This document shows, piece by piece, positions 2,198 to 46,854 of a stretch of DNA of 64,000 nucleotides (the first letter of the stretch is position 1; the number at the start of each line of letters is the position of its first letter). The stretch comes from Dentipellis sp. KUC8613. Its lineage: Eukaryota; Basidiomycota; Agaricomycetes; Russulales; Hericiaceae. Both the position numbers and the translations under genes were made by a program. Location: the NCBI GenBank assembly GCA_002286715.1, contig NSJX01000001.1:63835-127834 (forward strand), given 5' to 3'. A model generated the notes under the pieces. It made no database searches, was not told the DNA's origin, and was given only the letters and a program-made list of their open reading frames with translations.

Positions 2198-4696
2198 CTA
2201 GTCGCGGTGGATATGCGCCTCCTGCTCCTGCATCTCCTCCTCGCGGATCTCCTCGCACACATCGACGCCCTCGGCGGTATGCAGCGCCTGCACGATCTGC
2301 TCCTGGCGGAGCCACTGGTTCGCGGGGAGGTACCACCAGGAGATGACCGCGAAGATCGTGACCGCGCCGAAGATGACGCAGGCGAAGTTGAACGAGTCTG
2401 CGTCGACGGGGAAGTAGAACGGCGAGATCATGACCTGACATTGCCCACATTTCCATCAGTTCCAAGCTCTCCATTCGCCACGCAAAGGTAAAAGGGCAAC
2501 GCACCGCAAATATGAGCCCATTAAACAGGAACGTCATGACATAGAACGGGCGCCTGAACCTGCCGAGGTAGAAGTGCGACGCCTTGAACGTGTCGGGCGT
2601 CATCGTGAAGCGCAACAGCCCAATGAGGCCGTAGGCGGCGATGGTGGGGATACCACCCGCGGACACGAGCGATGTGAACGCGACCTGGGACGGGAGGATA
2701 GTGCACAGGAGCGCGGCGGCGAAGACGAACATGACTGTGACGGCGTTGCGCGGCTGGCCCTGGCTGTCGACGCGGCTGATCCAGTTCGAGAGCGGCAGGA
2801 CGCCGTCGCGCGCGACGGCGAAGATCAGGCGCGAGGCTGCGACGATGGCGATACTCGTGTTCTGTGGCACCGAGCTCAGTTTATGTGGTGAAAAGGGAGA
2901 AGGGGGGCGGGGTACTGACCAGCATGAGACCGATGACTGCGATGATGGTCATGAAGATGCTCGGGCCTTTGCCGAGCGCGAGGGCGTAGAGCTGCACGAA
3001 GGGCTGGGGGGCATCGAGGGCGAAGAGCGTGTCGAGGTCGGGCGTGCAGAAGAGGAACAGGATGGTCGTGATAAATCCGAGGATACCAGTGGCGATGGCG
3101 CTGCTGAGTATACCGCGGCCTGCGACGACGCTGTTCGCGCAATGTAAGCAAGACTACTCGCGGCTGTATGAAGTAGAGTGAGGTCACGAACCTGGCATTT
3201 TTGGTTTCTTCGGCGATATGGCCAGATGCATCGAAGCCAGTCAAAGTACCAGCGGTGAAAAGGCTGGTTTCGGAGGTCAACGGGGGCTTTCACTGGAGAA
3301 GAAATTGGTACTTACAATGAGAGCAACCAGTTCCATCCCGCGGGCGCACCAGTGCCGTTATCTAACAGCAGTCAGACGGATGGTCCACAACAACTATGCA
3401 ATGAAGCAGCTCACAGGTCATCGTGAAGACCTCCTTTGCGGTCCTGAACCCGTACGAGTTGTGCACAGCGATGGGGAGCCAGATGAGGCAGAGGAAGAAA
3501 TCAAGCATGATTATTCCCAGTGCAAATCTGAAGACGCCGGAGTAGAACTTCGGGGGCAGGTAGTTGATCGCAATGGACAGCACGAGCAGGCCTTCGGAGA
3601 TGGCCCAGATCAGCGCACGCCATTTCACATTCTGGTTTCCAACGCCACCGGGGAAGTCGATCTCCCAAACCGCAAGCTGCGAGACGATGTAGTTCGCAGT
3701 AGACTGTGAGATATTGGAGATGAGCCACATGGAATTTTTCTTTGTGGTTGATGGGAACCGACCTGACAGTTCCCGGCCGCGAAGGTCATCCACGCGGTGG
3801 TCGACCACCAAGCGACGAGGAAGCCGAAAAACCTGGCGTACTTGGGGCCCGCGCTCTCAGCGGCCCAAATGTAGATGGATCCACTCAAGGGAAGAGCGGA
3901 GCAAATCTCGGCCAACACGGCGGCCGTGACGAACATGAACACCATCGTGATGATGTAGGACGACCTATAGGGAGTTAGCATCCATCAGCGATAAGAAAGT
4001 AAATCGAATTACCATACGGCGGCCGGACCACCAGCCTGTAGACCCAGGAACAGAGCGCCTCTGTGAAGGTAGATGAGCATATGATGTTTTGGGTAGAGAG
4101 AGATAAGAACTGACCTGACACCGCCGATGAAGTTCAAGGCGCAGAAACTTGCCGCAAAGCTCTCGAGGAGGTGCCAGTTCCGGTGCAATTGCTGTAGACG
4201 ACAGAAGAGAAAAATTAGCAAACAGAACTCCAGCTCGGGTCGTGTTAGTATCAAACCTGCTTGTAGCCGAGATGTTCCTTTACACATGGAAAGAAAATGT
4301 CAGTACTTCCGATACAGCTCCCGTAGGAGGGTGATGAGTGGGTGTGACACTGGGGGCTTCCCTACGCAGGTCTGAGCGCTGATCAGGTTCAAGCGGTATA
4401 ATCTCAATCCCTGCCATCCCTGAGACGCATCCCCCCATGAGACGAGGTTGAAAGCCCGTGCTCACGAAAAGAAACGTCGCAGACATGGACAAGGATACCC
4501 GCAGCCTTTCCAGTACACCACTAGAAACCGACGTTACCGATTGAACGATATGAACGTTGGCAGCATTCTCATATCCTGCTTAGTTGTTCCCCGACAGCTG
4601 CCGGCACCTCTGAGTGTAGATTACCAGCTGGACTTCGTCCTGGTCCAAGGACGAGGCGACTTCGGTGTCTCCTTTTTTGATGGAGGGGGCAGACAT
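2198..4696 (-). CDS. APC-superfamily plasma-membrane permease, probable TPP-riboswitch-controlled thiamine transporter (Thi9/GABA-permease type)
   Basis: This is a multi-spanning permease of the fungal amino acid/GABA/choline branch of the APC superfamily. The start ATG is at 4694-4696 and exon 1 (4625-4696) encodes 24 residues ending DEVQL. A 21-nt micro-exon (4257-4277, EHLGYKQ) supplies the LGYKQ motif typical of this family. Later exons carry hydrophobic spans such as SYIITMVFMFVTAAVLAEI, a family signature GFDASGHIAEETKNA, and the tail EEIREEEMQEQEAHIHRD ending at 2198. The first intron is 347 nt against the usual 50-60 and holds a TPP-aptamer-like sequence (4352-4436). Known: S. pombe Thi9 is an APC-family thiamine transporter resembling GABA permeases, and fungal TPP riboswitches occur only in thiamine genes. 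I infer thiamine uptake from that combination. Without the riboswitch I would have called it only a GABA/choline-type permease. Confidence 0.85.
4318..4329 (-). other. short hairpin with UACG tetraloop downstream of the aptamer
   Basis: On the minus strand CTCC-TACG-GGAG forms a 4-bp stem capped by a UNCG-class loop closed by C-G. It lies between the riboswitch aptamer and the branch site, so it could help fold or space the 3' part of the intron. It is seen in sequence only; any role is inferred. Confidence 0.4.
4352..4436 (-). promoter_or_regulatory. TPP (thi-box) riboswitch aptamer, intronic
   Basis: Read on the minus strand, the conserved TPP core elements appear in order. There is an opening G6 run (4431-4436), the TGAGA pyrimidine-sensing box (4402-4406), ATACC, then TTGAACCTGATC (GAACCTGATC at 4381-4390), then GCGTAGGGAAGC (4356-4367), closed by C5 (4352-4356) able to pair with the opening G run. 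This matches the classical consensus CTGAGA / ACCTGATC / GCGNAGGGA, with T for the first C of the CTGAGA box and an atypical P5 loop. The length of about 85 nt is right. In fungi such aptamers lie in introns and control splice-site choice when TPP binds, and this one sits between donor and branch point. The exact P2 and P5 pairings were not settled by hand. Confidence 0.88.
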
Positions 4697-14757: not shown

Positions 14758-14849
14758 GACACCGTAGCTCAGTGGTTAGAGCATGCGATTGCAGTTTGCA
14801 ATGCTTAATCATTATCGCAGGGTCCCGTGTTCGACTCACGGTGGTGTCT
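14758..14849 (+). tRNA. tRNA-Cys (GCA) with 19-nt intron
   Basis: The cloverleaf is complete. The acceptor GACACCG (14758-14764) pairs with TGGTGTC (14842-14848), and discriminator U73 is at 14849. The D arm is GCTC..GAGC, the anticodon stem TGCGA (14784-14788) pairs with TCGCA (14115-position equivalent 14815-14819), and the T arm is CCGTG-TTCGACT-CACGG. The anticodon GCA is at 14791-14793. A 19-nt intron (14795-14813) sits at the canonical 37/38 position and contains TTGCAATGC, complementary to the anticodon region, as expected for tRNA-splicing-endonuclease substrates. The U73 discriminator fits Cys. Confidence 0.95.
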
Positions 14850-46523: not shown

Positions 46524-46608
46524 TGACCACCGCAGGGGTCGAACCTGCAATCTCCTGATGTGCGACTTTGAATCGTAGTCAGACGCGATGCCATTTCGCC
46601 AGGCGGCC
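46524..46608 (-). tRNA. tRNA-Arg (ACG) with 13-nt intron
   Basis: On the minus strand the acceptor GGCCGCC (46602-46608) pairs with GGTGGTC (46525-46531), and the discriminator is A at 46524. The D stem is GCG/CGC, the anticodon stem TCTGA/TCAGG, and the T arm is GCAGG-TTCGACC-CCTGC. Anticodon ACG is at 46574-46576, read as ICG after deamination. A 13-nt intron (46560-46572) lies at the canonical 37/38 position. Total 85 nt, 72 nt mature. Confidence 0.93.
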
Positions 46609-46769: not shown

Positions 46770-46854
46770 TGATTCGGCCCGGGTTCGAACCAGGGACCTT
46801 CTGTGCACCAAATTAATGTTAGACAGATGCGATAACCAACTACGCCACCGAACC
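46770..46854 (-). tRNA. tRNA-Val (AAC) with 11-nt intron
   Basis: On the minus strand the acceptor GGTTCGG (46848-46854) pairs with CCGAATC (46771-46777), and the discriminator is A at 46770. The anticodon stem is TCTGT/ACAGA and the T arm is CCTGG-TTCGAAC-CCGGG. Anticodon AAC is at 46818-46820. An 11-nt intron (46806-46816) sits at 37/38. The body closely resembles yeast tRNA-Val(AAC). Confidence 0.94.

Follow-up and report, generated by a model that had tools for sequence, protein, structure and literature searches.

Why does a permease gene of the basidiomycete Dentipellis sp. KUC8613 begin with an intron of 347 nt when its other nine introns measure only 48-70 nt? We analysed this gene within a window of 64,000 nt, the whole stretch of DNA under study, in which a sequence-only reading had placed a TPP riboswitch inside the long intron. 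Our results point to a TPP riboswitch of the TPPsw-AA/Thi9-like class that the first intron of this APC-family permease gene carries and that is proposed to act as an OFF switch through splicing on a putative importer of thiamine or its pyrimidine, and we put the probability of this reading at roughly 85%. The riboswitch and its basidiomycete permease host, as the sequence-only reading had them, hold up on four grounds, namely the motif, its genome-wide E-value, the anatomy of the intron and conservation in relatives. Published studies are cited by PMC number for those portions of their text that were available.

The permease gene and the aptamer in its first intron

The gene lies on the minus strand, and splicing of its ten introns gives an open frame through all 543 codons, a model that agrees with the earlier description of one long intron among short ones (Table 1). 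Pfam assigns the product to PF13520 (149 bits) and PF00324 (92.7 bits), and no PDB match was obtained at an E-value of 0.001. The closest relative listed is annotated as an amino acid transporter, comes from Dentipellis sp. KUC8613 itself and is identical over 85% of our model. This annotated protein begins at residue 80 of the present permease, an example of how the riboswitch intron disturbs gene models. Elsewhere in the window, three tRNA genes match the Rfam tRNA model with 47-52 bits (14758-14849 on the plus strand, 46770-46854 and 46524-46608 on the minus strand), and the inserts at their anticodon arms look like introns.

Within intron 1, the minus strand carries the core motifs of a TPP aptamer in order, UGAGA at 4406, AUACC at 4399, GAACCUGAUC at 4390 and GCGUAGGGA at 4367, and complementary G and C runs close this core as helix P1, both as the sequence-only reading had described. 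Helices P1 to P5 can all be drawn, yet with an irregular P2 of 3 bp, and folding without constraint favours another structure. PMC5882874 names two motifs that contact the ligand, and both are preserved here, with GAGAU of the pyrimidine site at 4405-4401 and GCG of the pyrophosphate site, in J4/5, at 4367-4365. For the G-G pair of J4/5, the same source gives two G residues 18 bases apart; here 18 bases separate G4384 from G4365, whose positions differ by 19. The UAAU of L5, which is termed conserved among fungal aptamers (PMC5882874), is absent from 4440-4343, and L5 reads CUCAGA. UAAU serves a closing contact between the two halves and makes no contact with the ligand. Its absence leaves us less confident that this is a standard member of RF00059. 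Reading from codons, L5 of the relatives also seems to be without UAAU, and the missing UAAU and a score below the gathering level may be features of the AA class.

The Rfam covariance model RF00059 matches 4342-4432 on the minus strand with 30.7 bits, at E-values of 0.0014 in 2 kb and 0.00025 within the intron. Genome-wide scoring (34 Mb), which took in 49 of 1121 first-look candidates, returned this site as the best match found, with an E-value of 0.0057. In this covariance check, which the sequence-only reading had suggested, the score stays below the Rfam gathering score of 54.3 bits, a cut-off for detection and no defining trait. Because of this shortfall, the aptamer goes unlisted in a gathering-level scan of the window; an RF00059 search of the genome at an E-value of 0.001 listed no match. 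A second match, on contig C76 (18.3 bits, E = 6.6), was taken as chance, and no core motif was seen by eye in the part inspected. The pattern GAACCTGATC N5-35 GYGTAGGGAA occurs at a single site in 34,145,342 bases, compared to none for a reversed-pattern control, and a looser core pattern led genome-wide to the same single site.

Table 1. Coordinates of the permease gene, its riboswitch intron and the aptamer (all on the minus strand)
Feature	Position	Details
Permease gene	2198..4696	543 codons, 11 exons; ATG 4696, stop 2200-2198
Exons 1-6	4696-4625, 4277-4257, 4191-4115, 4060-4013, 3964-3763, 3703-3415	
Exons 7-11	3361-3316, 3263-3192, 3130-2920, 2861-2505, 2434-2198	
Intron 1	4278..4624	347 nt, carries the aptamer; relatives have a similar exon behind exon 1
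Distal donor S1	4624	CUG/GUAAUC
First in-frame stop	4580..4582	codon 39, reached if S1 is not used to splice out intron 1
Upstream intron block	4487..4549	includes GCUGCGGGUAUCC; translation matches P0033 in 16/21 residues
Segment complementary to aptamer 5' half (4428-4407)	4473..4497	-28.8 kcal/mol; candidate TPP-free partner
Candidate proximal donor S2	4460..4468	UUC/GUGAGC, GU at 4465
TPP aptamer	4437-4351	within intron 1; pairs hand-assigned on the canonical architecture
P1, closing helix	4437-4432/4356-4351	UGGGGG/CCCCCA
P2	4428-4426/4395-4393	weak, irregular, 3 bp
P3	4425-4422/4411-4408	
P4	4387-4384/4364-4361	
P5	4381-4377/4370-4367	one bulged C
Branch-site-like motif	4305-4299	UACUGAC
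Intron 1 acceptor	ends 4278	AAAG, non-consensus
Exon 2	4257..4277	in-frame, 21 nt, EHLGYKQ; between riboswitch intron and intron 2

Conservation in relatives and the genes labelled eIF5B

We looked for the intron in the protein models of the best 120 of 827 relatives past threshold. Exon 1 and the LGYKQ exon occur together in 46 of the 120 by script and in two more by eye (P0026 and P0073), and 48 of the 120 have a first residue that lies beyond residue 31 of the present permease. Exon 2 is absent from the models P0031, P0041, P0057, P0065 and P0069, by skipping or by an error of prediction. A motif scan found the translated aptamer core in the N-termini of five of the 120, mis-predicted models that read through the intron; the other protein models are unable to reveal the aptamer. 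The same scan found the upstream-block motif LRVSL or AAGIL in P0030, P0033, P0066 and P0095. Parts of that block were also visible by eye in P0030, P0066 and P0095, in differing frames.

Fourteen odd N-termini picked by eye, the five carriers included, were then compared with the window by tblastn. All five carriers match the aptamer in intron 1: P0030 from Lentinula raphanica (18/20 residues, E = 1e-10), P0095 from Mycena olivaceomarginata (21/23, E = 2e-10), P0033 from a metagenome (18/21, E = 1.8e-9), P0043 from Cyclocybe aegerita (15/18, E = 4e-5) and P0046 from Gymnopilus dilepis (13/15, E = 1.5e-4). As the carriers had been seen before testing, these E-values are a confirmation and no blind test. 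P0030, P0095 and P0033 are translated in one frame and P0043 and P0046 in another, which argues that the nucleotide sequence, and with it the RNA, is conserved, and no peptide. Conservation of the aptamer among relatives is borne out by these five translated cores. An LGYKQ-type exon lies downstream of the aptamer in three carriers (P0030, P0033 and P0043), and the models of P0046 and P0095 are without it. The named carriers are members of the Agaricales, and Dentipellis is one of the Russulales.

Among the remaining N-termini, P0021, P0068 and P0098 match exon 1, and P0068 has in addition a weak match to the 3' end of the aptamer (E = 6.5). The tblastn matches listed include none to intron 1 for P0066 (Lactarius) and none in the region for P0025, P0029, P0051, P0053 and P0060. 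Protein searches with the translated aptamer recovered the queries themselves only. Viral contigs were scanned with a pattern, which returned 23 stretches; CGTAGGG was seen by eye in 0 of the 23 in the up to 45 bases downstream.

The relatives also bear on an unusual exception in the literature, a TPP riboswitch reported for eIF5B in Gloeophyllum trabeum and, in two copies, in Postia placenta (PMC5882874). Three of our relatives, P0009 from Termitomyces, P0017 and P0083, bear the source name translation initiation factor 5B, and Pfam finds in them amino-acid-permease families only. Another, P0093 from Agrocybe, consists of a permease model and a foreign N-terminal part that resembles the end of a gene of the IF-2/eIF5B type and that, taken by itself, has no match in Pfam at an E-value of 0.001. 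This part matches Dentipellis C1:206551-207590 with 76-80% identity, at a locus that overlaps a match to the IF-2 domain PF11987 (54.8 bits; a second locus, on C96, reaches 68.8 bits). We infer that eIF5B, as opposed to some other gene of the IF-2 type, occupies the C1 locus. Judging from such models, permease and eIF5B seem to adjoin in some Agaricales. As a neighbour of the permease in Dentipellis, eIF5B was rejected, since its likely locus (C1:206.6k) is about 138 kb away and the adjacency fails there. The published eIF5B riboswitch genes may, on the strength of these protein models, be mislabelled or fused permeases of the present kind, and the apparent riboswitch control of eIF5B is a likely subject for correction; a literature search linking the two terms found nothing beyond PMC5882874.

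Proposed splicing control and competing explanations

Most likely, alternative 5' splicing serves here as an OFF switch. At low TPP, the whole of intron 1 would be spliced from the distal donor S1, giving the full permease, a putative importer of thiamine or its pyrimidine precursor. With TPP high, the aptamer would close and either make a proximal donor accessible, of which 4465 is the best candidate, or cause splicing to fail; the stop would then be retained, and a 38-residue peptide or degradation of the mRNA would result. Donor 4465 ranks top of 26 GU sites in a crude consensus count and was chosen after all sites had been viewed. Its predicted mean unpaired probability rises from 0.11 in the free fold to 0.43 (506-nt fragment) or 0.52 (intron alone) when the aptamer is enforced, the latter rise being equalled by 5 of 200 shuffled upstream regions with the choice of site uncorrected.

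A functional aptamer could instead govern retention or the efficiency of splicing, through access to the branch site or acceptor, with no choice between two donors. The AAAG acceptor is weak, and there is a precedent in DUR31 of Candida parapsilosis, in which thiamin raises the amount of unspliced RNA and a second-donor product appears with and without thiamin (PMC5997356); here, too, unspliced RNA meets the stop at codon 39. However, predicted accessibility barely shifts at the branch site (0.32 to 0.38) and the acceptor (0.38 to 0.31) when the aptamer is enforced, whereas it does at the internal donor. Control of this kind is somewhat unlikely in our estimate, with an appreciable chance of being right.

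In the free fold, the 5' half of the aptamer is paired upstream, and one candidate arrangement has 4428-4407, the strands of P2 and P3, pairing with 4497-4473 and donor 4465 hidden until the ligand closes the aptamer and releases that donor. The energy of this duplex is equalled by 5 of 2000 shuffles and by 13 of 1388 real stretches of the window, 4428-4407 being the best among 20 overlapping segments tried. Segment 4497-4473 overlaps the conserved upstream block, which is perhaps the expression platform, and the P3-loop side of the pairing looks unconserved by eye in the translated relatives. A pairing between the 5' half of an aptamer and an upstream segment was not found described in the available portions of the literature. 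We consider this particular switch, envisaged for the amino-acid-transporter class of Agaricomycetes, doubtful and keep the pairing as a hypothesis only. Two other pairings were tried. The aptamer strand UUGAACCUG and the intron-2 donor CAG/GUUUGA (9 bp by eye) form a best duplex of -14.8 kcal/mol, which is unremarkable because shuffled upstream regions average -14.6 kcal/mol with the same strand, and this candidate was dropped. The pairing of 4402-4381 with 4534-4509 (-19.6 kcal/mol) is equalled in 34 cases when the upstream region is shuffled 1000 times, in 8 of 1000 shuffles of the strand and by 30 of 1388 stretches of the window; it is suggestive only and was left unused.

Folding alone is no evidence for the aptamer, whose stability relative to shuffles is z = +0.37, compared to z = -1.82 for the region from exon 1 to exon 2 (equalled by 4 of 100 shuffles). 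Enforcing the aptamer costs the intron fold 36.6 kcal/mol relative to its free optimum, a gap that averages 16.5 kcal/mol with shuffled upstream regions and is as large in 0 of 200 of them. A gap of this size implies that the aptamer would not form unless ligand binding, tertiary contacts and co-transcriptional folding contributed, and it can be read as the mark of an evolved competing structure or of a poor aptamer.

The second of these readings would suit an aptamer that has decayed, keeping its core and having lost TPP binding in this species, so that the long intron is spliced constitutively. Beyond the unfavourable fold, such decay could account for the score below gathering, the L5 without UAAU, the irregular P2 and the non-consensus acceptor. 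Against decay, neither ligand-contact motif is damaged, the core closely resembles that of relatives from other genera, whose L5 also appears to be without UAAU, and fungal-specific models are reported to outperform generic ones (PMC11683625). We hold decay to be improbable. Chance resemblance within a GC-rich intron, to which a fold no better than shuffles and the low score might point, has a negligible probability given a motif unique in 34 Mb, its genome-wide E-value and the matches in relatives that already contradict it.

Thiamine supply and known riboswitch classes

The genome contains THI4 and two salvage-kinase families, represented by a hydroxyethylthiazole-kinase-family gene and by a Phos_pyr_kin gene, and THI5/NMT1 was not found genome-wide with PF09084 or yeast THI5, in searches run with no fungal positive control. 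The fungus probably cannot make the pyrimidine precursor of thiamine; the gene set suggests auxotrophy for the pyrimidine or for thiamine, and it is plausible that the fungus depends on importing one or the other. Inability to make the pyrimidine would create a need for import of thiamine or HMP, which fits a carrier repressed by TPP, and the locus points to a carrier that may be the route by which either compound enters a fungus in which THI5 went undetected. Given the literature on the class and the lack of a detectable THI5, it is plausible that the permease is a thiamine transporter under splicing control. The 4.7 kb around THI4 had no Rfam match up to an E-value of 1. Another member of the Agaricomycetes, Serendipita indica, is without THI5, THI6 and THI20 and is a thiamine auxotroph, with a gene pattern that is not widespread among the fungi surveyed (PMC5955953).

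The sequence-only reading had thought such an association little described, which is not the case: PMC5882874, PMC11683625 and PMC5997356 all report such riboswitches in basidiomycetes. Riboswitch-regulated amino-acid transporter genes were described in 2018 as widespread across Basidiomycota but missing from Ascomycota (PMC5882874), and in 2024 the TPPsw-AA group was given as the most prevalent in Basidiomycota, with one member in the ascomycete Hortaea and, in a few species, an annotation as amino-butyric-acid transporter (PMC11683625). Also in 2018, orthologs of Thi9 in basidiomycetes were said to carry riboswitches (PMC5997356, citing Moldovan et al.). No bench test of the TPPsw-AA class in a basidiomycete was found in the available portions of the literature.

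The Type III design of PMC5882874, said there to be experimentally unobserved, has an internal intron of 200-400 nt with two donors and a stop between them, and is OFF at high TPP. Intron 1 falls inside this range of lengths, its stop at 4582-4580 is present, and its second donor is a candidate. With THI5/NMT1 of Neurospora crassa (PMC5997356, PMC5882874), the Dentipellis locus would have in common the logic of a proximal donor that is masked without TPP and exposed by it. The N. crassa gene, in contrast, uses an intron in its 5' UTR together with uORFs, whereas the intron here lies between coding exons and holds an in-frame stop, and the masking strand, P4-P5 in THI5/NMT1, is proposed here to be the 5' half of the aptamer. 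NCU01977 and Candida DUR31 (PMC5882874, PMC5997356) are alike in having an intron within the coding sequence of a transporter gene and a premature stop unless the first donor is used. They belong to another family of carriers, and the NCU01977 type has an intron of 650-900 nt and long-distance pairing through P1'. A switch between 4428-4407 and 4497-4473 would therefore differ both from that pairing and from the P4-P5 masking of NMT1.

The closest likeness is to the basidiomycete systems themselves. Thi9 orthologs (PMC5997356) and the present gene are both TPP-riboswitch carriers related to amino-acid transporters, basidiomycetes included. TPPsw-AA has in common with the Dentipellis riboswitch the phylum, the transporter family and the proposed control of splicing from within an intron, and the host gene here is of the amino-acid-transporter family of a basidiomycete, with the translated aptamer core recurring in five of the 120 protein models of its relatives. 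Our finding adds a Dentipellis case to a class already known from comparative work.
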